64,000 nucleotides of DNA from Geothrix sp. 21YS21S-2 (GTDB lineage: Bacteria > Acidobacteriota > Holophagae > Holophagales > Holophagaceae). Under the pieces are notes generated by a model. That model made no database searches. It was not told where the DNA came from and saw only the letters and a program-made list of their open reading frames with translations. The stretch covers positions 1,274,001-1,338,000 of the forward strand of contig NZ_CP132910.1 in the NCBI RefSeq assembly GCF_030846775.1, written 5' to 3'. Shown piece by piece: positions 7,520 through 36,086 of the stretch (the stretch's first letter is position 1; each line of letters starts with the position of its first letter). A program made the position numbers and the translations under genes.

Positions 7520-7675
7520 TCGAACCCTCTCAACCCGGGAACCACCTGCCGGTTCGCTCCATTCACTTCTCCGATACCAACGATCTTCAAGGGCCATTCC
7601 AGCGATGTTGACCGGCTCACGTTTCCCCTGGCTCAAATTATTTAAGGCTTATATTTGTTCGGAAAGAGGGGTGTC

Positions 7676-8398
7676 ATGAGGCGGGGAGGTGGACAAGCTT
7701 CCATGGTATGGCTGGAACCGCATCGCGTCCACGCCGGAGGGCGGGAGCGGGCCATTTCGGGTCCCTTGACGGCGGACACCCTGGTCATGGCCCTGGGGGA
7801 CCTCCCCCCGGGCCCGGCCCGGTGGGTGGTGGACGACGCCTGGATCCCCTCGGTCCTGCTGCGCGACATCGTGGAGCTCCCCGCCGGGATCGAGGCCCGG
7901 GAGGCGTTCTTCCGGTGGCGCTTCGGCCAGAGCCTGGCCCTGGAGGCCCCCCAGGCGGTGCAGGCCCTCTCCCTGGGGGACAACGCCTGGCTCCTGGCGG
8001 GCCTCCCCGAGGCCACCCGCGAAACCTGGATCCAGGCCTCCCTGACCCTCGGCCGGCCCATCCGGAGCCTCCTGCCCCGGTGGCTCTGGCTCTACAACCG
8101 CCTCGCGCCATCCCGGGAGGTGCCGGGGATGCTCCTGTCCCTGTGCCCGGCCCGGGAAGGCGCCTTCACCGGCACCCTCGCGGCCTGGGGCCGCCACCTG
8201 GCCCTCCTGCGCCAGTGGACCGACCCGGCCACCCCCGGGGCGTGGATCCAGGAGCGGGTGCTGCCCTCGGCGGCCTACCTCCACCGGGAGTCCCGGAGCC
8301 CCCACGAGCTCCTGGTGTGGGGCGCCCCGGACTGGCCCGGCTTGGGAATCCCCCGCCGCATCCTTCCCCCGGACCTCCCGGACCGGGAGGCCCTCTGA
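7676..8398 (+). CDS. PilM-like pilus assembly protein, copy 1
   Basis: This 240-residue protein opens the first of two tandem pilus-type operons. It has no signal peptide or membrane segment, as expected for the cytoplasmic PilM, which binds the PilN tail in the T4P inner-membrane complex. Obvious actin-fold phosphate loops are missing, but the pattern IPSVLLRDIVELP....REAFFRWRFGQSL resembles the middle of PilM/GspL-like proteins, and its position before PilN-, PilO-, PilP- and PilQ-like genes fits. The start ATG 7676 follows an AAGAGGGG ribosome binding site; an ATG at 7655 lacks one. The stop overlaps the next ATG (TGATG). The paralog is at 12667-13398. The family call rests mainly on context. 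Confidence 0.55.
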   Translation: MRRGGGQASMVWLEPHRVHAGGRERAISGPLTADTLVMALGDLPPGPARWVVDDAWIPSVLLRDIVELPAGIEAREAFFRWRFGQSLALEAPQAVQALSLGDNAWLLAGLPEATRETWIQASLTLGRPIRSLLPRWLWLYNRLAPSREVPGMLLSLCPAREGAFTGTLAAWGRHLALLRQWTDPATPGAWIQERVLPSAAYLHRESRSPHELLVWGAPDWPGLGIPRRILPPDLPDREAL

Positions 8399-8994
8399 TG
8401 GCCGTCCCCGCCCTCCGGCTCGACCTGGCCCCGCCCAGTTCCCCCTGGCGGCTCAACCACGCCGCCATTGGCTGGGCCCTCCTGGCCGCGGGGGCCCTGG
8501 TGCTGGCGGCAGCGGCCGGGGCCACCCTGAGGGCCCACCGGCAGGCCTCCCGGGCCGGTCAGCAGGCGGTGCAGACCCGCACCCGCACCCGCCAATCCGA
8601 GGAGGCCAAGCGCCGGGTCCTGGACGAGCTGCGCGGCGTGGACGTGGCCCGGGAGATGCCCCGGTGGCGCCTGGCGGAACGCATCCTCCTGGAGCGCAGC
8701 CTGCCCTGGTCCCGGCTCACCGCGGAGCTGGAGCGCAGCCTCGTGGAGGGGGTGCGGGTGCGGTCCCTGCAGCGCACCCGGGGAGCGGACCGGAAGGTCC
8801 AGGTGAAGGTCAGGGGCGAGGCCAGGACCCGGGAGGCCGAGGTGGGCTTCGTCGAGGCGCTCCGGGGAAACGCCTTCTTCGAACAGGTGATCCTGGAACG
8901 CGAAAGCGAGCGCCAGGGGGGCGGGGTCGACTTCGAGTGCACCCTCGCCGCCCACTCCGTGCCGCCCCCCTTCGTCCCCCTGCCCCGGAGGTGA
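8398..8994 (+). CDS. PilN-like inner-membrane pilus assembly protein, copy 1
   Basis: A 198-residue protein with a short cytoplasmic N-terminus (MAVPALRLDLAPP), one membrane helix at about 22-42, and a periplasmic part starting with a helical stretch and ending in a small alpha/beta domain. This is the layout of PilN (GspL C-terminal type). The N-terminal segment is conserved with the paralog at 13398-14228, as expected if it docks into the PilM-like protein. It overlaps the upstream gene by one base. Unlike the paralog it ends soon after the periplasmic domain and has no Ala/Pro tail. PilN and PilO together form the alignment complex linking the cytoplasmic motor to the secretin. Confidence 0.7.
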   Translation: MAVPALRLDLAPPSSPWRLNHAAIGWALLAAGALVLAAAAGATLRAHRQASRAGQQAVQTRTRTRQSEEAKRRVLDELRGVDVAREMPRWRLAERILLERSLPWSRLTAELERSLVEGVRVRSLQRTRGADRKVQVKVRGEARTREAEVGFVEALRGNAFFEQVILERESERQGGGVDFECTLAAHSVPPPFVPLPRR

Positions 8995-8996
8995 CC

Positions 8997-9572
8997 GTGC
9001 TCACGACGCTGCGTTCGAGCACCTTCAGGGCCGTCGCCGGCGGAGCCATGGCGCTCCTGGGGGCGGGGATCTTCATCTTCGCGCTGCCCAGCGCCGCAAG
9101 GCGCCGCGAAAGCAGCGAGAAGGCCGCGAAGGAGGCCTCCGCGGCCCTGAAGCGCCAGGAGGATGAGCTCAAGGGGTACCAGGCCGAGTCCGAGCGCATA
9201 AGGGTCGACCGGAAGGTCATGGACGAGCTCCTGGGCGCCATGCCCGCCGAGACCGTCGGCAACCTCCAGTGGAAGCTCAGCCGGCGCCTCTTCGAACTGG
9301 CCGGCAGGCACGGCGCCCACCTCGTCTTCGTGAAGTACGGCGCCCCCGCCAGGGAGGGCGCCAGGGATGCCCTCCTGGAGGCGGTGGACGTGGAGTTCAC
9401 GGTGTTCGGAGTCTTCAGCGAGCTCAAGGCCTTCATGCTGGACCTGGAGGGCGGCAGGCTGCCCTTCGCGGTGGTGAGCGCCAAGCTGGACGAGGCCCCG
9501 GAAGGCGCGCACCTCACGGTGACGCTTCGGGCCTTCCGGCGAGCCCCGGGCGCGGGGGAGGAGGAACCATGA
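8997..9572 (+). CDS. PilO-like inner-membrane pilus assembly protein, copy 1
   Basis: The protein of 191 residues starts at GTG 8997, two bases after the pilN-like stop; alignment with the paralog (MIAPLRSSTLR versus VLTTLRSSTFR) supports this start over the GTG at 8991. It has one N-terminal membrane helix (about 13-33), then a coiled-coil segment rich in Glu, Lys and Ala (about 36-75), and a C-terminal domain with the pattern EAVDVEFTVFGVF, which fits the ferredoxin-like periplasmic fold of PilO. Its stop overlaps the next ATG (ATGA). In T4P systems PilO pairs with PilN and contacts PilP. Confidence 0.7.
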   Translation: MLTTLRSSTFRAVAGGAMALLGAGIFIFALPSAARRRESSEKAAKEASAALKRQEDELKGYQAESERIRVDRKVMDELLGAMPAETVGNLQWKLSRRLFELAGRHGAHLVFVKYGAPAREGARDALLEAVDVEFTVFGVFSELKAFMLDLEGGRLPFAVVSAKLDEAPEGAHLTVTLRAFRRAPGAGEEEP

Positions 9573-10210
9573 AACCGTACCTCAAGGGCGCCGACCCCGG
9601 TTCCATGCTCCAGGACCTCAAGACCAACCGGCGCGTCCAGGCGGCCCTGGCGGCCCTGTTCGTCATGGTCTGGCTCCTGTGGCCCTCCGCCCAGGCCCCG
9701 AAGCCGGCCGGTCCCGGGCGGCGCCCTGCGGCGCCCCTGGGCGACCGCCAGGCCCGGGAGCTCCAGAAGCTGCCCGACCTGTCGGCCCTTGCCCAGGCCG
9801 GGGAGCTGCCCCCGGACGCGCGGATGGCGCGGGACCTCTTCCTCTTCGAGGCGCCCCCGCCTCCGCCGCCGCCGCCCAGGCCCGAAAAGCCTCCGCCTCC
9901 GCCCACCCCGGAGGAGCTCGCGGCCCGGCAGCTCGCGGCGGACCGGGCCCGGGAGGCCGCGGGCAAGCCCCAGCTCCGCTTCCTGGGCTACCTGGGAACG
10001 GCGGGATCCGGGCGCCTGGGGGCCTTCATGAAAGGCGAAGAGCCCCTGGTCCTCGCCCAGGGCAGCCTCCTTGATCCCCGATGGCGCCTGGTGAAGGTCA
10101 CGGACGCGACAGCCGAATTCCAGAACGTGAGGTTCGCCGACCTCAGGCACCGCATCGACGCCATCGAGGCCCGGGGCCCGGCGGCCCGCGTCCCCTCCAA
10201 CGAATTCTGA
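9569..10210 (+). CDS. PilP-like protein with proline-rich linker, copy 1
   Basis: The 213-residue protein has an N-terminal membrane segment (about 24-42), a middle linker with eight prolines, Arg-Pro-Glu-Lys and five more prolines (about 93-110), and a C-terminal beta-rich domain that starts FLGYLGTAGSGRLGAFM and ends AEFQNVRFADLRHRID. That C-terminal block resembles the PilP/GspC homology domain that binds the secretin. Classical PilP is a lipoprotein; here the N-terminus looks more like a GspC-type membrane anchor. It overlaps the upstream gene by four bases. The second copy has a much longer proline run. Confidence 0.65.
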   Translation: MKPYLKGADPGSMLQDLKTNRRVQAALAALFVMVWLLWPSAQAPKPAGPGRRPAAPLGDRQARELQKLPDLSALAQAGELPPDARMARDLFLFEAPPPPPPPPRPEKPPPPPTPEELAARQLAADRAREAAGKPQLRFLGYLGTAGSGRLGAFMKGEEPLVLAQGSLLDPRWRLVKVTDATAEFQNVRFADLRHRIDAIEARGPAARVPSNEF

Positions 10211-10225
10211 GCCTCCCGGAAGGAA

Positions 10226-12067
10226 ATGATGCCGACGACCCCTCCCCACCGCCTCCCCCTGGCCCTCGCGGCCGCCCTGGCGCTCACGCTGGCCCTGGGC
10301 TGCGCCATCCACAAGGCCCAGGCCACCTTCGACGAGGGCAGGTACGAGGAGGCCCTGGAGCAGTTCCGGGCGATCCTCGCCAAGGACCCCGGGAACATCC
10401 GGGCCCGGATCGGCTTCCGCAGGACGGCCCCCCTCGCCGCGGAGGCGCACCTGGTCAAGGCCCGGGAGGCCCGCAAGCAGGGCCGGGAGGAGGAGGTGCG
10501 CCGGGAAGTGGCCGCGGCCGTGGTGCTGGATCCCGCCAACGCGGTGGCCGTGGACTGGATGAACCGCCTGGAGGAGGCCGAGGCGCGGAAGCGGGAGAAG
10601 GCGGAGAGGGAGGGCGGCATCGAGGAGGCCCGTCAGCGCGCCGGGGCCCGGCCGGCCCTGCCCATCAATCCGCGGTCCCTGGAGGGCCTGGACCTGAACT
10701 TCTCGCGCAAGACCAGCCTGAAGGAGATCTTCCAGCAGCTGAGCAAGGCCTCGGGGGTGAACATCATCCTCCACAGCTCCGCCAGCGCCCAGGACCCGAG
10801 CGTCTCCCTGGACCTGCGGGGAATGCCCTTCCAGAAGGTCCTGGACACCCTGATGCTCCAGAGCGACCTCTTCTACAAGGTGCTCGACCCCAACACCATC
10901 ATGGTGTTCAGGAAGACGCCCCAGAACCTCAACGATTTCGAGAACAGGCTCATCCAGACCTTTTTCCTCTCCAACGCCGAGGTGGACAGCGTCCGGCAGA
11001 TCTTCAACGCGATCATGCCCCAGATGCGCGTGTTCATGGACAAGCGGCTCAACGCCCTCACCGTGCAGGCCCGCGCCTCGGACCTGCCCATCGCCCAGCG
11101 CATCGTCAGCCAGCTGGACAAGGCCAAGGCCGAGGTCGTCGTCTATCTCGAGCTGGTGGAGGTGAGCGAGACCGCCAAGGAGCAGGTGGGCCTCCTGCCC
11201 ACCCTGAGCCTTGCGGATACCGGCGCGGGCGCGGGCATCTACCGCCTGGCCGCCACCACCTCCTCCATGAACGGCGGCCTCAACACCAACGCCGGCGGCC
11301 TGCGCATCACGAAGTCCAGCCTCAACTTCCTCTTCGCGCCCCTGGCCCTGGACGCCCTCAAGGCCAGCGGCCAGGGCAAGCTCCTGGCCAGCCCCAACGT
11401 GCGGGTGGTCTCGGGTGAGACCGGCGAGGTGAACATCGGGGAGAAGGTGAGCACCACCCAGTCCCAGCTGGGCGGCCTGGGCAGCGCCCCGGCCGCCGCG
11501 GGTTCCCAGGCGTCCAACGCCCTGGCCAGCCTCGGGGGCAACCTCACCACGCAGACCCAGTACAGCTACGAGGACGTGGGCGTGCAGATCAAGGTCAAGC
11601 CCCGCGTCCATTTCAACGGCGACATCACCATCGACCTGGAGTCCACGGTGAAGACCCTCAAGGCCGGTTCGGCCCAGGGCAGGCCCGACCTGGGCCAGCG
11701 CATCATCAAGACCTCGGCCCGGCTCCGGGACGGCGAGACGGCGATCTTCGGCGGACTCCTGAAGGAGGACGAGACCCGGAGCCTGCAGGGCGTCTGGGGC
11801 ATCACCGACCTGCCCATCCTGGGCAGGCTCTTCGGGAACAACCGCAAGGACAAGAGCCGCACCGACGTGATCCTCACCCTGCGCGCCGTGATCGTGCGCA
11901 AGCCCGACCTGGGCGAATCGGACTTCGCCCCCTTCGACCCCGACCAGACCGCCACCGCCATCAAGCCCTTCGCGCCAAGGCCCGAACCCGGGCCCCTTCC
12001 GTCCGGCCTGCGGGACGAGCCCGTCCCCGCACGGCCCGAGCCCCCCGCGCCGGAGGCGGCTCCGTGA
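10226..12067 (+). CDS. pilQ: Secretin (PilQ/GspD family) lipoprotein with N-terminal TPR region, copy 1
   Basis: This 613-residue protein starts with a lipoprotein signal whose lipobox LALG-C puts the lipidated Cys at 26. A TPR-like region follows (about 30-125: DEGRYEEALEQFRAIL), then a secretin N0/STN-type domain (RKTSLKEIFQQLSKASGVNIIL), N1-type repeats (FFLSNAEVDSVRQIFNAI) and the secretin beta-barrel (LASPNVRVVSGETGEVNIGEKV, DVGVQIKVKPRVH, FGGLLKEDET). It ends in a Pro-rich tail and has no cohesin-like domain, unlike copy 2. It would form the outer-membrane pore. Both of the two leading ATG codons are possible; the second (10229) is better spaced from GGAAGGA. The stop overlaps the next GTG. 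Confidence 0.88.
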   Translation: MMPTTPPHRLPLALAAALALTLALGCAIHKAQATFDEGRYEEALEQFRAILAKDPGNIRARIGFRRTAPLAAEAHLVKAREARKQGREEEVRREVAAAVVLDPANAVAVDWMNRLEEAEARKREKAEREGGIEEARQRAGARPALPINPRSLEGLDLNFSRKTSLKEIFQQLSKASGVNIILHSSASAQDPSVSLDLRGMPFQKVLDTLMLQSDLFYKVLDPNTIMVFRKTPQNLNDFENRLIQTFFLSNAEVDSVRQIFNAIMPQMRVFMDKRLNALTVQARASDLPIAQRIVSQLDKAKAEVVVYLELVEVSETAKEQVGLLPTLSLADTGAGAGIYRLAATTSSMNGGLNTNAGGLRITKSSLNFLFAPLALDALKASGQGKLLASPNVRVVSGETGEVNIGEKVSTTQSQLGGLGSAPAAAGSQASNALASLGGNLTTQTQYSYEDVGVQIKVKPRVHFNGDITIDLESTVKTLKAGSAQGRPDLGQRIIKTSARLRDGETAIFGGLLKEDETRSLQGVWGITDLPILGRLFGNNRKDKSRTDVILTLRAVIVRKPDLGESDFAPFDPDQTATAIKPFAPRPEPGPLPSGLRDEPVPARPEPPAPEAAP

Positions 12068-12516
12068 CCCGCCGCGGCTTCACCCTCCTGGAGATGGCCC
12101 TGGCGGCCACGGTGCTCGCCGTGTTCGCATCGGGCATCCTGCCCCTGGCCATGAACAAGGTGCGCCGGGACCGGGAGCTGCAGCTCCGCCGGGCGCTCCT
12201 GGAGCTGCGCGCGGCCATCGACGGCTACAGGGCGGCCGCTCTCCAGAACGCGGCCAAGGGCCCTCCGCCGGCCAACGACGGCTACCCGGCCTCCCTGGAG
12301 GCCCTGGTGGAGGGGGTGACGGTGCCGGGCAAGGAGAAGAAGGTCCGGCTCCTCCGCCGCATCCCCACGGATCCCTTCACCGGCAAGGCCGAGTGGGGCC
12401 TTCGCTCCATGGCCGACGATCCGGACAGCGCCACCTGGGGCGGCGGGGACGTCTTCGACGTCCACAGCCTGGCCCCGGGGGAGGGCGCCAACGGGATCGC
12501 CTACCGCCACTGGTAG
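12064..12516 (+). CDS. Type IV pseudopilin (GspG/PilE-like), copy 1
   Basis: A 150-residue prepilin-like protein with a five-residue leader and the prepilin peptidase site RRG-FTLLEM, followed by the hydrophobic helix typical of class I pilins. The C-terminal part (LRRIPTDPFTGKAEWGLRSM, then DVFDVHS) matches the GspG-type ending in which a calcium-binding loop closes the protein. It starts at GTG 12064, overlapping the secretin stop by four bases (GTGA), so it belongs to the same operon. It could be the major pseudopilin of a T2SS-like machine or a minor pilin of a T4P. The paralog is at 17827-18285. Confidence 0.85.
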   Translation: MTRRGFTLLEMALAATVLAVFASGILPLAMNKVRRDRELQLRRALLELRAAIDGYRAAALQNAAKGPPPANDGYPASLEALVEGVTVPGKEKKVRLLRRIPTDPFTGKAEWGLRSMADDPDSATWGGGDVFDVHSLAPGEGANGIAYRHW

Positions 12517-12544
12517 AAAAAAAGGCAGGAATCCGTCCACGCCC

Positions 12545-12573
12545 TTGGGAATCACCAACCCCGGCGATACTAT
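12545..12573 (+). promoter_or_regulatory. Candidate sigma-70 promoter of the second pilus operon
   Basis: TTGGGA (12545-12550), a 17-base spacer and TACTAT (12568-12573) lie about 95 bases before the first gene of the second pilus operon. It is the only good match in the 150-base gap, and suggests that unit 2 can be transcribed separately from unit 1. Confidence 0.5.
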
Positions 12574-12666
12574 GGGGGGTCGATTCGCCTGAGCCGGAGT
12601 TCCCTTGCCGATGAACCGTGGAACCATTCCCCCTATTGCAAACCCTGCCCATGGGGGACCTAGCAG

Positions 12667-13398
12667 ATGACCGCCATGACCCTGGGGACCAAAACAGCAT
12701 CCGTGGTCTGGCTGGAGCCCCACCGCATCCACGCCGGCGGCCAGTCCCGGAACCTGTCGGGCCCCATCACCCAGGATGTGCTGGTCATGGCGCTTGAGGG
12801 CCTTCCCCCCGGCCCCACCCATTGGGTGGTGGACGACGCCTGGATCCCGTCGCTGCTGATCCGGGACATCGTGGAGGTCCCCGCGGGTTCCGAGGCACGG
12901 GAGGCCTTCTTCAAGTGGCGGTTCAACCAGAGCCTGGCCCTGGAGGCCCCGCAGTCCGTGCAGGCCCTGGACCTGGGAGAGAACGCGTGGCTCCTGGCCG
13001 GCATCGCCGAGACGACCCGGGAAGCCTGGCTGCAGGCCTCCCTCACCCTGGGCCGGCCCATCCGCAGCCTCATCCCCCGCTGGCTCTGGCTCTACAATCG
13101 ACTGGCCGCCAGCCGTGAGGTTCCCGGCATGCTGCTGTCCCTTTGTCCGGCCGGTCCCGACACCTTCACCGGCACCCTGGCCTCCTGGGGGCGCAACCTG
13201 GCCCTCCTGAGGCAGTGGACGGAGCCCGCCACCGCGGAGGCCTGGATCCAGGAGCGGGTGCTCCCCTCCTCCGCCTACCTCCAGCGGGATTCCCGCTCGC
13301 CGCAGGAGGTCCTGGTGTGGGGGGCCGCCACGTGGCCCGACTGCTCGATCGCCACCCGGATCCTCCAGCCCGAAATCCCGGCCCAGGAGGCCCTCTGA
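12667..13398 (+). CDS. PilM-like pilus assembly protein, copy 2
   Basis: A 243-residue soluble protein, paralog of 7676-8398 with long stretches of identity, for example PRWLWLYNRLA and SREVPGMLLSLCP. The region WIPSLLIRDIVEVP....REAFFKWRFNQSLALE resembles PilM/GspL-like proteins of pilus operons, but no ATP-binding loops are evident, so it may be a shortened, non-nucleotide-binding scaffold. It starts at ATG 12667 (an in-frame ATG at 12676 is an alternative) after a GGGGGA sequence, and its stop overlaps the next start by one base. It would recruit the PilN-like partner at the cytoplasmic face of the inner membrane. Confidence 0.55.
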   Translation: MTAMTLGTKTASVVWLEPHRIHAGGQSRNLSGPITQDVLVMALEGLPPGPTHWVVDDAWIPSLLIRDIVEVPAGSEAREAFFKWRFNQSLALEAPQSVQALDLGENAWLLAGIAETTREAWLQASLTLGRPIRSLIPRWLWLYNRLAASREVPGMLLSLCPAGPDTFTGTLASWGRNLALLRQWTEPATAEAWIQERVLPSSAYLQRDSRSPQEVLVWGAATWPDCSIATRILQPEIPAQEAL

Positions 13399-14228
13399 TG
13401 GCCGTTCCCGCACTCAAGCTCGACCTCGCCCCCCCCAGCACCCTCTGGCGCCTCAACCACGCCCTCATCGGGTGGGCGGCCCTGGCCGCGGGCGGCCTGG
13501 TCCTGGCCGGCGCCCTGGGCTTCACCTTGAGGGCCTACCAGCAGGCCTCCCGGGCAGGCAAGCTAACCGTGGCCACCAACGCCCGCACCCGGCTCATCGA
13601 GGACTCCCAGCGCAAGGTCATGGACGAGCTCCGCTCCGTGGATGTGGCCAAGGAGCTGCCCCGGTGGCGCCTGGCCGAGCGCATCTTCACCGAGCGCAGC
13701 CTGCCCTGGTCCCGCCTCACCGCGGAACTGGAGCGGAGCATGGTGCCCGACGTGCGCCTCAAGTCCCTGCAGCGCACCCGCGGATCCGACCAGAAGGTGC
13801 AGGTGAAGGTCCGGGGCGAGGCCCGCACCCGGGAGGCCGAGGCCGCCCTCGTGGAGTCCATCCAGAAGAACCCCTTCTTCGAGCAGGTGATCCTGGAGCG
13901 GGAATCGGACCGCCAGGGCGGAGGGGTCGACTTCGAGTACACCCTGGCCGTCTTCTCCGTCCCGCCGCCCTACAAGCCCCTGCCCAAGTACGGCCCGCAG
14001 GCCAAGGCGTCCAAGGCGGCCCCCAAGGCCGAGGCGCCAAGGCCCGCCGCGCCCGCCCCCGCCGCGCCCCGCCCCGTCGCGCCGCGCCCCGCCGCCGTCG
14101 AGCCCCCGGCGCGGGATCCCTACGTCCCCACCCTCATGAACCCGGCCGTCCCGCAGAACCCCTTCCCCGCCAGGACCCCGAGGCCCCCGAGGTCCCGGCC
14201 CCGGCCTTCCGGCGGAGGTGAGGAATGA
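13398..14228 (+). CDS. PilN-like inner-membrane protein with Ala/Pro-rich tail, copy 2
   Basis: A 276-residue protein with the same N-terminal docking segment (MAVPALKLDLAPP), membrane helix (about 22-42) and periplasmic domain as copy 1, followed by an extra tail of about 75 residues (from about 200) made mostly of Ala, Pro, Arg and Lys. The tail is low-complexity and probably an extended periplasmic linker; it ends close to the next start (ATGA overlap at 14225). Copy 1 stops where the tail begins. The pairing with the neighbouring PilO-like protein is inferred from the family. Confidence 0.7.
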   Translation: MAVPALKLDLAPPSTLWRLNHALIGWAALAAGGLVLAGALGFTLRAYQQASRAGKLTVATNARTRLIEDSQRKVMDELRSVDVAKELPRWRLAERIFTERSLPWSRLTAELERSMVPDVRLKSLQRTRGSDQKVQVKVRGEARTREAEAALVESIQKNPFFEQVILERESDRQGGGVDFEYTLAVFSVPPPYKPLPKYGPQAKASKAAPKAEAPRPAAPAPAAPRPVAPRPAAVEPPARDPYVPTLMNPAVPQNPFPARTPRPPRSRPRPSGGGEE

Positions 14229-14809
14229 TCGCGCCGCTTCGCTCCAGCACCCTCCGGCTCGTCGGCGGCGGCGTCATGGCCGTCCTGGGCCTCGCCATCC
14301 TCCTGTTCGTGCTGCCCGACGCGTCCCAGCGCCGCGGCCGCAGCCTCAAGGCCGCCCAGGACGCCTCCCGGGACCTGGAGCGCAAGAATGCCGACCTCAA
14401 GGCGTACCAGGCCGAGGCCGAGCGCATCCGGACCGACCGCAAGGCCCTGGACGAACTCCTTCGCAACATGCCCGCCGAGAGCATCGGAAAGCTGCACTGG
14501 AAGCTCAGCCAGAAGCTCTTCGAGCTCGCGCAGAAGCACGGGGTCCGCCTCGTCTCCGTGAAGTACGGCGCGCCCAGCAAGGAGGGCGCCAAGGGCAGCC
14601 TCCTGGAGGCCGTGGACGTGGAGTTCACCCTCACGGGCGTGTTCAAGAGCCTGAAGACCTACATGCTCGCCCTGGAGGGCAGCAGGCTGCCCTTCGCGGT
14701 GGTCAGCGCCAAGCTGGACGAGAGCCCCGAAGGGGCCCATCTGACGGTGGTCCTGAGGGCCTTCCGCCAGGCCCCCGGCGCCGCCCTCGAACCCGGGGAG
14801 GGAGCATGA
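14225..14809 (+). CDS. PilO-like inner-membrane pilus assembly protein, copy 2
   Basis: A 194-residue protein with one N-terminal membrane helix (about 13-31), a charged helical segment (about 35-80) and a C-terminal domain with EAVDVEFTLTGVF, the counterpart of copy 1 at 8997-9572. Overlaps at both ends (ATGA) put it in a translationally coupled operon. By family it forms a heterodimer with the PilN-like protein and transmits to the PilP-like protein. It is highly similar to copy 1 in its C-terminal half (for example RLPFAVVSAKLDE), so cross-assembly between the two systems is conceivable. Confidence 0.7.
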   Translation: MIAPLRSSTLRLVGGGVMAVLGLAILLFVLPDASQRRGRSLKAAQDASRDLERKNADLKAYQAEAERIRTDRKALDELLRNMPAESIGKLHWKLSQKLFELAQKHGVRLVSVKYGAPSKEGAKGSLLEAVDVEFTLTGVFKSLKTYMLALEGSRLPFAVVSAKLDESPEGAHLTVVLRAFRQAPGAALEPGEGA

Positions 14810-15471
14810 GCGCACCCCTTAAAGGCATCAAGGGCACCGACGCCAAGGCCATGCTCCAGGACCTGAAGTCCAACCGCCGGGTGCAGGTCGCCCTGGCGGC
14901 CCTCGCGGTGATGGTCTGGTACCTGTGGCCCTCGTCCACTCCGGCCGCCGTCCCCAAGGGCGCCGAGGCCCGCCGCGCGGCCGCCGTGGCCCTGGGCGAC
15001 CGCCAGGCCCGGGAGCTCCAGAAGCTGCCGGATCTGGCCAGGCTGGACAAGGCCGGGGAACTGCCCACGGAGGACCGGATGCTGCGGGACCTCTTCCTCT
15101 TCGAAGGCCCCCCGCCCCCGCCGCCGCCGCCCCCGCCTCCGCCGCCCCCTCCGCCCCCGCCCACCGCCGAACAGCTCGCGGCCCAGGCCCTGGCCGCGGA
15201 CCGGGCCCAGCAGGCCGCGAGCAAGCCCCAGGGGCTCCGCTTCCTGGGCTACCTGGGCACGAAGAAGTCCGGGCGCCTGGGCGCGTTCATGAAGGGCGAC
15301 GAGCCGGTCACCTACAAGCAGGGCGATCTCTTCAACCCCCAGTGGCGCCTCGTCAAGGTCACGGAGGCCTCCGCCGAATTCCAGAACGTGAAGTTCGCCG
15401 ACATCAAGTTCCGGATCGACGCCGTGGAACCCCGCGGCCACTCCGGGTCGGGACCGGCCAATGAATTCTGA
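14806..15471 (+). CDS. PilP-like protein with an 18-proline run, copy 2
   Basis: A 221-residue protein with a membrane segment at about 24-42, a conserved stretch GDRQARELQKLPDL shared with copy 1, an uninterrupted run of 18 prolines (about 98-115) and a C-terminal beta domain from FLGYLGTKKSGRLGAFM to AEFQNVKFADIKFRID. The C-terminal domain resembles the PilP/GspC homology region that contacts the secretin. Copy 1 has two shorter proline blocks instead. The proline run is coded by mixed CCC, CCG and CCT codons, so it is not a simple triplet repeat. A long run of this kind would normally need EF-P for translation. Confidence 0.65.
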   Translation: MSAPLKGIKGTDAKAMLQDLKSNRRVQVALAALAVMVWYLWPSSTPAAVPKGAEARRAAAVALGDRQARELQKLPDLARLDKAGELPTEDRMLRDLFLFEGPPPPPPPPPPPPPPPPPPTAEQLAAQALAADRAQQAASKPQGLRFLGYLGTKKSGRLGAFMKGDEPVTYKQGDLFNPQWRLVKVTEASAEFQNVKFADIKFRIDAVEPRGHSGSGPANEF

Positions 15472-15490
15472 AACCCACCGGAAGGATAAG

Positions 15491-17830
15491 ATGCGAACCC
15501 TGCGACCCACCATCGATCACCTGGCCAAGACCCTCGCGGTCACGCTGTCCCTGGTCTTCGCCCTGGGCTGCGCCCTCCACAAGGCCCAGGCGTCCTTCGA
15601 CGAGGGCAAGTACGAGGAGGCGCTCGCGCAGTACCGCCAGATCCTGAACAAGGATCCGGGCAACATCCAGGCCAAGATCGGCTTCCGCAAGACCGCGCCG
15701 CTGGCCGCCGAGGCCCACCTGATCAAGGCCAGGGACGCCAAGAAGCGGGGCCGGGAGGACGAGGTGCGCCGCGAGGTGGCCTCGGCCGTGGTGCTGGACC
15801 CCTCCAACCAGGTGGCGGTGGACTGGATGACGCGGCTGGAGGAGGCCGCGGCCCGCCAGCGCGCCGCGGAGGAGAAGGAGAACAGCGTCGAGGAGGCCCG
15901 CCAGCGCGCCGAAGCCCGGCCCGCCCTGCCCATCAATCCCCGCTCCCTGGAGGGCATGGACCTCAACTTCACCCGCAAGACGAGCCTGCGCGAGATCTTC
16001 ATGCAGCTCAGCAAGACCTCCGGCGTGAACATCATCCTCCACAGCTCCGCCAGCGCCCAGGACCCGACCGTCTCCGTGGACCTGCGTGGGCTCTCCTTCC
16101 AGCGCGTGCTCGACACCCTGATGCTCCAGAGCGACCTGTTCTACAAGGTGCTCGACCCCAACACCATCATGGTCTTCAAGAAGAGCCCCCAGAACCTCAC
16201 GGACTACGAGAACAAGCTCATCCAGACCTTCTACCTCTCCAACGCCGAGGTGGACGCGGTGCGCCAGATCTTCAACGCCATCCTGCCCACCATGCGCGTG
16301 TTCATCGACAAGCGGCTCAACGCCATCACCGTGCAGGCCAAGGCCACGGACCTGTCCATCGCCCAGCACATCGTCGCCCAGCTGGACAAGGCCAAGGCCG
16401 AAGTGGTGGTGTACCTCGAACTGGTGGAAGTGAGCGAGACCGCCAAGGAGCAGGTGGGCCTGCTGCCCACCGCCAACCTCACCGACACCAGCGCCACCTC
16501 GGGCATCTACCGCATCGGCGCCATCACCAGCAACACCACCTCCGGCTTCAACTCCAACACCGGCGGCATCCGCATCTCGAAATCCAGCCTCAACTTCCTC
16601 TTCGCGCCCCTGGCGCTGGACGCCCTCAAGAGCAGCGGAGAGGGCAAGCTGCTTGCGAGCCCCAACGTGCGGGTGATCTCCGGCGAGACGGGCATGGTCA
16701 ACATCGGTGAGAAGATCAGCACCACCCAGTCCAGCCTGGGCGGAACCTCCACCGCGGGCACCACCGGCACCACCGCGGCCTCGGCCCTGGCGAGCCTGGG
16801 CGGCACCCTGGCCACCCAGACCCAGTACAGCTACGAGGACGTGGGCGTGAAGATCACCGTCAAGCCCCGGGTCCACTTCAACGGCGACATCACCATCGAC
16901 CTGAAATCGGAGGTCAAGACCCTCAAGGCCGGCTCCACCCAGGGCCGGCCCGACCTGGGCCAGCGCATCATCGAGACCTCGGCCCGGCTCAGGGACGGCG
17001 AGACCGCGGTGTTCGGCGGACTCCTGAAGGAGGACGAGACCAAGAGCCTCCAGGGCATCTGGGGCATCACCGACATCCCCATCCTGGGCAAGCTCCTGGG
17101 CAGCAACCAGAAGAACAAGAGCCGCACCGACGTCCTGCTCACCCTGCGCGCCGTCATCGTGCGCAAGCCGGACCTGGGGGAGGAGGACTTCGGCCCCTTC
17201 GACCCGGACCAGGCCCCCGGCGCCTCCAAGCCCTTCGCGCCCAAGCCCGAGCGCAAGCCCCTGCCTTCGGGGCTGCAGGACGAGACGTCCGCGGTTCCGC
17301 CCAAGGCCGCCCCCAGGGCGCCCGAAGCCCCCGCAGCGGCTCCGGCTCCCGTGCCCGCGCCCGTCCCCGCCAAGCCCGCCGCCGCCGAGCCCCCCAAGGA
17401 GGCGGCCCCGGCCCCGGCCCCCATGGCCGACGCCTCCTCCTCCCTGGTGTTCTTCATGTCGCCCCTGTCCACCGAGGCCGCCAAGGGCCAGCGCCTCTCG
17501 CTGAACCTCTTCGCCAGCGGGGCCCAGGGGCTCACCTCCGGCACCATGACCCTGCAGGTGGATCCCCGCCTCAAGGTGCTCTCGGTGAACGCCGGCGACT
17601 TCCTCACCTCCGAGGGCGGCGCCCTCTCCCAGGCCCCGGCCAAGGACGGCCTCGTCCTGCTCACCTTCAACCGGTCCACGGGCGCCTCGGACAGCGGCAC
17701 CTTCGCCGTGATCGAGCTGGAGGCCGTGGAACCCGGCAAGGCCACGGTGATGATCCAGGACGGCAAGTACCTGGTGGGCGCCAACCCCATCCCGGCGCGC
17801 TACGTGAACTCCCTGGTGACCATCCAATGA
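15491..17830 (+). CDS. pilQ: Secretin (PilQ/GspD family) with TPR region and C-terminal cohesin-like domain, copy 2
   Basis: A 779-residue lipoprotein (lipobox FALG-C, Cys27) with the same TPR, STN/N-domain and secretin core as copy 1. After an Ala/Pro linker (about 590-645) it carries an extra domain at about 648-779 that starts SLVFFMSPLSTEAAKGQ, contains LNLFASGAQGLTSGTMTLQ and ends with VMIQDGKYLVGAN. This reads like a cohesin-type beta-sandwich, a fold known in other bacteria fused to secretins. I chose ATG 15491, right after GGAAGGATAAG, over an upstream ATG at 15461. The position of the extra domain after the secretin barrel raises the question of whether it lies in the periplasm or at the surface. 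Confidence 0.88.
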   Translation: MRTLRPTIDHLAKTLAVTLSLVFALGCALHKAQASFDEGKYEEALAQYRQILNKDPGNIQAKIGFRKTAPLAAEAHLIKARDAKKRGREDEVRREVASAVVLDPSNQVAVDWMTRLEEAAARQRAAEEKENSVEEARQRAEARPALPINPRSLEGMDLNFTRKTSLREIFMQLSKTSGVNIILHSSASAQDPTVSVDLRGLSFQRVLDTLMLQSDLFYKVLDPNTIMVFKKSPQNLTDYENKLIQTFYLSNAEVDAVRQIFNAILPTMRVFIDKRLNAITVQAKATDLSIAQHIVAQLDKAKAEVVVYLELVEVSETAKEQVGLLPTANLTDTSATSGIYRIGAITSNTTSGFNSNTGGIRISKSSLNFLFAPLALDALKSSGEGKLLASPNVRVISGETGMVNIGEKISTTQSSLGGTSTAGTTGTTAASALASLGGTLATQTQYSYEDVGVKITVKPRVHFNGDITIDLKSEVKTLKAGSTQGRPDLGQRIIETSARLRDGETAVFGGLLKEDETKSLQGIWGITDIPILGKLLGSNQKNKSRTDVLLTLRAVIVRKPDLGEEDFGPFDPDQAPGASKPFAPKPERKPLPSGLQDETSAVPPKAAPRAPEAPAAAPAPVPAPVPAKPAAAEPPKEAAPAPAPMADASSSLVFFMSPLSTEAAKGQRLSLNLFASGAQGLTSGTMTLQVDPRLKVLSVNAGDFLTSEGGALSQAPAKDGLVLLTFNRSTGASDSGTFAVIELEAVEPGKATVMIQDGKYLVGANPIPARYVNSLVTIQ

Positions 17831-18285
17831 CCCTGCGCCAGCGCGGCTTCACGCTCCTGGAGATGCTGGTGACCGCCACGGTCCTGGTGATCCTCGCCTC
17901 GGCGGTGATCCCCATGGCCCGCAACGGCGTGCGCCGGCAGCGGGAGCTGGAGCTGCGCCGGGACCTGCGCGAGATGCGCATGGCCATCGACGCCTACAAG
18001 GCCGCCGCCGACGGCAACAAGATCAAGTCCCCGCCCCCCGAGAACAACGGCTATCCCGAGACCCTGGAGAGCCTGGTGGAAGGGGTCCCCGTCACCGGCA
18101 AGATCGGCAAGACCCGCTTCCTGCGCCGCATCCCGGTGGATCCATTCACCAACAAGCCCGAGTGGGGCATGCGCTCCATGGCCGACGACGCCACCAGCTC
18201 CAGCTGGGGGGGCGGCAACGTGTTCGACGTGTACAGCCTGGCCCCCGGGACCGGCTCGAACGGGATTCCGTACCGCCAGTGGTGA
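17827..18285 (+). CDS. Type IV pseudopilin (GspG/PilE-like), copy 2
   Basis: A 152-residue prepilin-like protein with a seven-residue leader and cleavage site QRG-FTLLEM, a long hydrophobic helix, and a C-terminal part (LRRIPVDPFTNKPEWGMRSM, then NVFDVYS) like GspG major pseudopilins. It overlaps the secretin stop by four bases (ATGA) and closes the second operon. It is the paralog of 12064-12516. The gene is followed by about 85 bases and then the tRNA-Leu. Confidence 0.85.
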   Translation: MTLRQRGFTLLEMLVTATVLVILASAVIPMARNGVRRQRELELRRDLREMRMAIDAYKAAADGNKIKSPPPENNGYPETLESLVEGVPVTGKIGKTRFLRRIPVDPFTNKPEWGMRSMADDATSSSWGGGNVFDVYSLAPGTGSNGIPYRQW

Positions 18286-34961: not shown

Positions 34962-36086
34962 GTGAACGATTCTAGCAAGGTGAGCAAGTACGTCGGGCTG
35001 GATGTCCACAAGGAGACGATTGCGGTCTCGGTGGCTGAAGCCCACGAAGGGGAAGTTCGGTACGTGGGTGAGATCGCCAATACACCGGAGGCCGTGGTGA
35101 AACTTGTGAGGCAACTCCGGAAGGATGGCGCGACGCTTTCGTTCTGCTACGAAGCGGGCCCCTGCGGTTACATCCTTTATCGGCAACTACTCGCTTTACG
35201 GCTGGAGTGCCAGGTTGTGGCGCCGTCCCTCATTCCCAGGAAACCTGGGGACCGGGTCAAAACCGACCGCCGCGATAGTCTGACCTTGGCCAGGCTCCAC
35301 CGGGCCGGGGAACTAACGGCAATATGGGTGCCCGACGAAGCCCAGGAGGCCCTGCGGGATCTGACCCGGGCTCGGGAGGACCTGAAGCATTTGCAGCACG
35401 TCGCCAAGCAGCGACTGTTGGCCTTCCTGCTGCGGCACGGGCGGACCTATTCCGGAAAAACCCGGTGGACCCAGGCCCATCTCCGCTGGCTGGAAACCAT
35501 GAAGTTCGACCAGCCGGTCCAACAAATCGTCTTTCAGGAATATGTCGATACGGTCCAGGCCATGACCAGACGGGTTGCGGCCTTCGACGAGCAGATCGAA
35601 ACCGCCGGATCGAGTTCGGCCTTCTCCAGGCTGATCGAAGGCTACATGGCCCTGCGCGGGATCAACCGCCTCACTGCGACCACGATCGTGGCTGAGATCG
35701 GCGATTTGAGGCGATTCGCCAATGCACCCCAGTTGATGAAGTATCTGGGGGTGGTTCCCAGCGAGCATTCCAGTGGCGAGACCCGGTCCCGCGGGGGGAT
35801 CACCAAGACCGGCAATGGCCATGTGCGCAGGGTCCTGGTGGAGGCAGCATGGACCTACCGGCATCCCGCGAGGAAAACCCCGAGCCTGCAAAGACGGGCC
35901 GAACGTGCTCCAGAAGCAGTGCAGACCATCGCCTGGGCTGCACAGAAGCGCCTTTGCGCACGCTACCGGCAGTTCGAGGCCAGGGGCAAGAAGAAGGTCC
36001 AGACCTGCACGGCCATCGCCCGCGAGCTGACCGGCTTCCTCTGGGCCATTGGCCAGGCCCTGCCACCGCCTACCACCAAGCCTTAG
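34962..36086 (+). CDS. IS110 family transposase (DEDD type)
   Basis: A 374-residue recombinase with the RuvC-like DEDD active site: Asp14 (GLDVHK), Glu64 (YEAGPCGY), Asp102 and Asp105 (KTDRRDS). The C-terminal Tnp20 domain has LRGINRLTATTIVAEIGD and the Ser-containing block SEHSSGETRSRGG (Ser270/271 the likely catalytic serine) followed by ITKTGNGHVRR. Family members cut and rejoin DNA guided by a structured bridge RNA. The start is GTG 34962 after GGAGG. The frame is intact, so the element may be active. Confidence 0.93.
   Translation: MNDSSKVSKYVGLDVHKETIAVSVAEAHEGEVRYVGEIANTPEAVVKLVRQLRKDGATLSFCYEAGPCGYILYRQLLALRLECQVVAPSLIPRKPGDRVKTDRRDSLTLARLHRAGELTAIWVPDEAQEALRDLTRAREDLKHLQHVAKQRLLAFLLRHGRTYSGKTRWTQAHLRWLETMKFDQPVQQIVFQEYVDTVQAMTRRVAAFDEQIETAGSSSAFSRLIEGYMALRGINRLTATTIVAEIGDLRRFANAPQLMKYLGVVPSEHSSGETRSRGGITKTGNGHVRRVLVEAAWTYRHPARKTPSLQRRAERAPEAVQTIAWAAQKRLCARYRQFEARGKKKVQTCTAIARELTGFLWAIGQALPPPTTKP

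Follow-up and report, generated by a model that had tools for sequence, protein, structure and literature searches.

Why would a genome keep two complete six-gene assembly operons of pilus or secretion type side by side, and what does the cell build with them? Gene-block duplication is thought to be one route to new pilus and secretion systems, and a locus in the 5.25 Mb single-contig genome of Geothrix sp. 21YS21S-2 raises this question. We analysed a 64 kb window of the genome (the whole stretch from genome position 1274001 to 1338000), in which two such units occupy window positions 7676-18285. No published account of this locus turned up in literature searches.

Two head-to-tail units share their gene order and differ in content

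The two co-directional units stand head to tail, each with the gene order M-N-O-P-Q-G. The upstream unit A spans 7676 to 12516 and the downstream unit B spans 12676 to 18285. Their features, in window coordinates, are:

7560..7675, + strand: unit A leader, AT-rich block AAATTATTTAAGGCTTATATTT, kept in the window genome (G000) and G075; differs from the ancestral promoter block
7676..8398, + strand: A_M, PilM/GspL-cyto-like actin-fold protein (predicted), 240 aa; 75% identical to B_M
8398..8994, + strand: A_N, PilN-like, 198 aa, without the Pro-rich C-terminal tail; PF05137 1.3e-5
8991..9572, + strand: A_O, PilO/GspM-position protein, 193 aa; 65% identical to B_O
9569..10210, + strand: A_P, PilP/GspC-position protein, 213 aa; 69% identical to B_P
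10226..12067, + strand: A_Q, TPR-secretin, 613 aa, no cohesin domain; PF00263 5.5e-29; GspD model 1.2e-40
12064..12516, + strand: A_G, GspG-like pseudopilin, 150 aa; N_methyl 9.8e-5; TIGR01710 (GspG) 8.4e-6
12540..12660, + strand: promoter-like block 5' of unit B, CCCTTGGGA...CGATA, common to single-copy genomes
12676..13398, + strand: B_M, 240 aa; alternative start possible at 12667
13398..14228, + strand: B_N, PilN-like with Pro-rich tail, 276 aa; PF05137 3.2e-6
14225..14809, + strand: B_O, PilO/GspM-position protein, 194 aa
14806..15471, + strand: B_P, PilP/GspC-position protein, 221 aa
15491..17830, + strand: B_Q, TPR-secretin with C-terminal cohesin domain (predicted), 779 aa; PF00263 2e-30; alternative start possible at 15461
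17827..18285, + strand: B_G, GspG-like pseudopilin, 152 aa; TIGR01710 5.5e-9

In both units the genes overlap by 1-4 bases at M/N, N/O, O/P and Q/G, with a short gap from P to Q. The amino-acid identity between A and B was 75% for M, 74% for N, 65% for O, 69% for P, 78% for Q and 65% for G, a similarity far beyond chance. The preliminary description had placed two diverged PilM-N-O-P-Q-pseudopilin sets of the same order and overlap style here, with every gene intact; both sets were found where it put them (65-78% identical), and all 12 of the 12 frames were open. The content of the units is unequal: the cohesin domain at the C-terminus of B_Q (779 aa) is missing from A_Q (613 aa), and A_N (198 aa) lacks the proline-rich tail of about 78 aa carried by B_N (276 aa). 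A_Q has a lipobox-like LGCA near residue 26. Sigma-70 and terminator scans of the coding strand found nothing. Elsewhere in the window, at about 35700-35900, an IS110-type transposase-like sequence was noticed by eye while scanning for another motif.

The encoded platform leans towards type II secretion

A secretin, a prepilin-type pseudopilin and PilM/N-type inner-membrane proteins occur together in these units, as is typical of the type IV filament superfamily. N carries a PilN domain (PF05137) in both units, Q is a TPR-secretin with one Secretin_N domain, and G has a prepilin N-terminus. Among the curated models Q was nearest to GspD and G to GspG, with every score under its cut-off. B_Q matched GspD, its best model, at 2.4e-38 (132 bits versus a cut-off of 351, with only one Secretin_N domain), and the N domain of Q is a single N1-type domain as in PilQ, versus several in GspD. 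The PilQ model gave 87-98 bits on Q against a cut-off of 284. PulG/EpsG were the top, weak, fold matches of B_G. The cohesin family PF00963 was detected in 6 of 12 orthologous Q C-termini (best 1.1e-6), with B_Q itself below threshold and short of E 1; by these sequence matches, Q of unit B and of complete single-copy orthologs is predicted to end in a cohesin domain.

The 240-aa short-form M was unmatched by any Pfam or NCBIfam PilM model. The AlphaFold model of B_M (pLDDT 91.8) shows a PilM/GspL actin-like fold, with Foldseek matches to PilM (1.8e-8) and EpsL (5.5e-7) and a Z of 17.7 over 227 residues when compared with PilM of 2ych. The putative identity of M as PilM thus comes from the predicted fold, with no sequence match. 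M, O and P were also compared by sequence with solved structures, and no useful match was obtained. B_O had a weak GspM match (XpsM, 4.6e-5), P had no relevant family match in either unit, and O and P were assigned by their gene position in the unit.

The units resemble a type II secretion system (T2SS) in that GspD and GspG are the best-scoring models for the secretin and pseudopilin, M is predicted to fold like cyto-GspL/PilM, the pseudopilin closes the operon and an orphan GspF gene is present in the genome. However, they differ from it in that their proteins fall below all curated Gsp cut-offs, Q has one N1 domain, a TPR lipoprotein-like N-terminus and a cohesin C-terminus, M and N are two distinct proteins, an arrangement known from pili, and the components are scattered over the genome. 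With the PilMNOPQ proteins of type IVa pili they share the order M-N-O-P-Q, the PilN domain in N, the PilM fold and the one N1 domain in Q, but they carry their own GspG-like pseudopilin, and M is a short form (240 aa) that PilM models miss.

The preliminary description had read the units as a pilus or secretion assembly operon, and the pilus side of this reading had to be modified. A separate canonical pilM-N-O-P-Q operon, which passes both the PilM and PilQ models, lies about 170 kb away (at about 1.462-1.467 Mb), with pilB-pilT-pilC at about 2.90 Mb, and we rejected the units as the genome's type IVa pilus operon because that operon fills the role. Taken together, the machine belongs to the type IV filament superfamily as a divergent platform with features of both T2SS and type IV pili, and its leaning is towards type II secretion. 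The GspD/GspG leaning suggests that it may work in T2SS-like protein export.

The operon is confined to Holophagaceae and is nearly always single

Within the class, the M profile matched 73 of 93 genomes, every one of them from the family Holophagaceae and nearly always in one copy. Similarly, 26 of 297 genomes across the phylum were matched, again all in Holophagaceae, and the operon is confined to this family. About 70 related genomes carry a single unit, nearly always between smc and rpsO, in a nearly fixed setting with smc divergent upstream and rpsO, a nudix gene and sua5 downstream; in the window, a tRNA-Leu lies between the unit and rpsO. An exception among the loci examined was G078, with no smc and rpsO flanks in the stretch examined. 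In that genome (L054 4657-7205) the cohesin domain is out of frame with the secretin, through either an assembly error or a frameshift within the Pro-rich linker.

The comparison of one versus two units among relatives, which the preliminary description had proposed, gave a single unit in nearly all and two full units only in the window genome and in G075, a metagenome-assembled genome whose unit B is split across contigs C117 and C13. In the congener G074 unit B is intact, and the space between it and smc holds a remnant of A, a stump of 25-33 codons followed by the B leader. The first 75 bases of the stump were identical to A_M at 66/75 positions, versus 50-57/75 for B or single-copy M. As the stump is A-like and the B leader stands behind it, unit A was once present there and has since been lost. 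The preliminary description had named loss of selection (frame breaks) in one unit across related strains as refuting its reading; the deletion of A to a stump in G074 goes part of the way towards this for A, and B shows no such loss.

Tandem duplication of the whole operon left B as the resident copy

In all six gene trees the A copies grouped together (support 100) and so did the B copies (92-100), which agrees with the duplication that had been proposed rather than an origin from separate lineages. The paralogous units are adjacent, their clades are consistent across genes and the outgroups have a single copy: this is a lineage-specific tandem duplication of the whole operon. As to its timing, the concatenated tree placed A as sister to B with weak support (65/62). 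One alternative in the AU test, an older duplication, had a p-AU of 0.33, and by this sequence-based test a duplication older than the split from G073/G076 is not rejected; synteny favours duplication in the lineage of the window genome, G074 and G075. A separate horizontal origin of A was unsupported, with A falling inside the genus in all gene trees but one; in that one, for the pseudopilin, the long A branch is uninformative. Gene conversion between A and B was likewise rejected, with no sustained tract (4 of 78 windows).

The leader block CCCTTGGGA...GATA...AGCCGGAG is common to single-copy genomes and unit B and absent from A, which has a different, AT-rich leader. Moreover, the cohesin domain and the proline-rich N tail are kept in B, as in nearly all single-copy orthologs, and are missing from A in both two-unit genomes. 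Since B keeps the ancestral leader, cohesin domain and N tail and A is without them, unit B is the resident copy and unit A the derived duplicate.

Both units are constrained and unit A evolves faster

The A stem is longer than the B stem (pseudopilin 0.52 versus 0.08, N 0.30 versus 0.09), and A_G is the most accelerated gene in unit A. Between species, dN/dS (NG86) was about 0.21-0.51 for A and 0.11-0.33 for B, values that are relative only, as dS is both underestimated and close to saturation in this GC-rich genome. Among 411 conserved columns, 8 carry A-specific changes, and the pseudopilin accounts for four of these. Both units are under purifying selection, with A less constrained and faster evolving. 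The claim that both are under selection stood as far as dN is below dS in all genes, with the qualification that A is relaxed and has been deleted in one related genome. The claimed similarity of the PilO- and PilP-like C-terminal domains was seen for O, in which conservation is 79% over the last quarter and 53% over the first, but not for P (60% over the last quarter). The argument drawn from it, that mixed complexes may form, is thus half right.

A second unit brings no extra motor genes

No PilB/PilT/GspE or PilC/GspF gene was found within the 64 kb window, as the preliminary description had noted for PilB/PilT and PilC at the locus. Beyond the canonical pilBTC, the genome holds one orphan PilB/GspE-like ATPase gene (3.326 Mb), scoring equally as PilB and GspE, and one orphan GspF gene (3.110 Mb), scoring best as GspF; both fall below cut-off and are unlinked. 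The single-unit genomes G073, G018, G059 and G025 match it in both counts, with two GspF/PilC genes and two ATPase genes of PilB/GspE size, and G043 and G074 have one more of each. Because the counts are equal in single-unit relatives, the second unit arrived without a second motor. These counts suggest one shared motor for both units and fit the earlier proposal of alternative complexes on it; the canonical PilB/PilC could also serve as that motor. The canonical PilB (L083 8400-10280) has an MshE-related cyclic di-GMP-binding N-terminal domain (60 bits).

A proposed model: two envelope complexes on one motor

We propose that the Holophagaceae-specific operon would encode an inner-membrane alignment complex (M, N, O, P), an outer-membrane secretin (Q) and a major pseudopilin (G). 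It was copied head to tail in the lineage of the window genome, with B staying resident and A shedding the secretin cohesin domain and the N tail, sitting behind a different leader and evolving faster while remaining constrained. Both units would probably run on the same two orphans, one PilB/GspE-like ATPase and one GspF, so that the cell could build two versions of the envelope complex on one motor, with two pseudopilins and a secretin with or without the cohesin module. Taken whole (a duplicated T2SS-leaning operon, B resident, A derived, two alternative complexes and a shared motor), we consider this explanation reasonably likely. A and B may further differ in regulation or substrates. More tentatively, and with the odds against it, the machine may be switchable, a single motor docking to one or the other complete envelope complex, each with its own secretin and pseudopilin.

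The loss of two domains, the faster evolution and the reduction to a stump in G074 could also mean that A, kept only briefly after duplication, is decaying and does little or nothing, so that B alone matters. This is unlikely, as two species keep all six A genes open, each gene with dN lower than dS, and A retains nearly all ortholog-conserved residues, with the few A-specific changes given above. Complete platform sets and separate leaders would also suit two independent machines that share neither motor nor substrates, but the GspF/PilC-type and PilB/GspE-type genes show no increase alongside the second unit, and we regard such machines as very improbable. Lower still we place a single hetero-oligomeric complex of A and B with a mixed secretin or mixed platform: paralogs 65-78% identical that retain nearly all conserved residues might co-assemble, but the pseudopilin and N have diverged strongly, B alone suffices in G074 and all other genera have a single unit.

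Duplicated pilus genes are known from the minor-pilin operon paralogs of Xylella fastidiosa (PMC9956873) and from pilTU-type tandem duplicates (PMC6668835). The present case resembles them in that paralogous filament genes diverge after duplication in one cell, and differs in that a whole block of platform, secretin and pseudopilin stands in tandem. Single-copy, two-copy and copy-lost states occur in one genus, which makes the order of changes in promoter, secretin domain and pseudopilin readable. The locus also documents a Holophagaceae-specific machine with a putative cohesin-bearing secretin in soil Acidobacteriota. If true, a switchable machine would be a natural experiment in which a whole multiprotein platform splits in two.

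Related secretin and prepilin genes outside the units

A contig profile search with the Q alignment returned two loci only, owing to poor patterns. A stand-alone secretin paralog, 38-40% identical to unit Q, lies on the minus strand of the window genome at 1185377-1185760 (L082 about 9261-10400), and no neighbouring platform genes were noticed. The congener G077, whose genome has 8% contamination, carries a second, also stand-alone, Q paralog (58-64% identical) at contig edges (C50 and C251; L076 1-1056, L077 2-658), which may be genuine or foreign. In the window genome, two further clusters of prepilin-type proteins (L086 4032-7836, L087 4714-7098) are candidate minor pseudopilins for either system.
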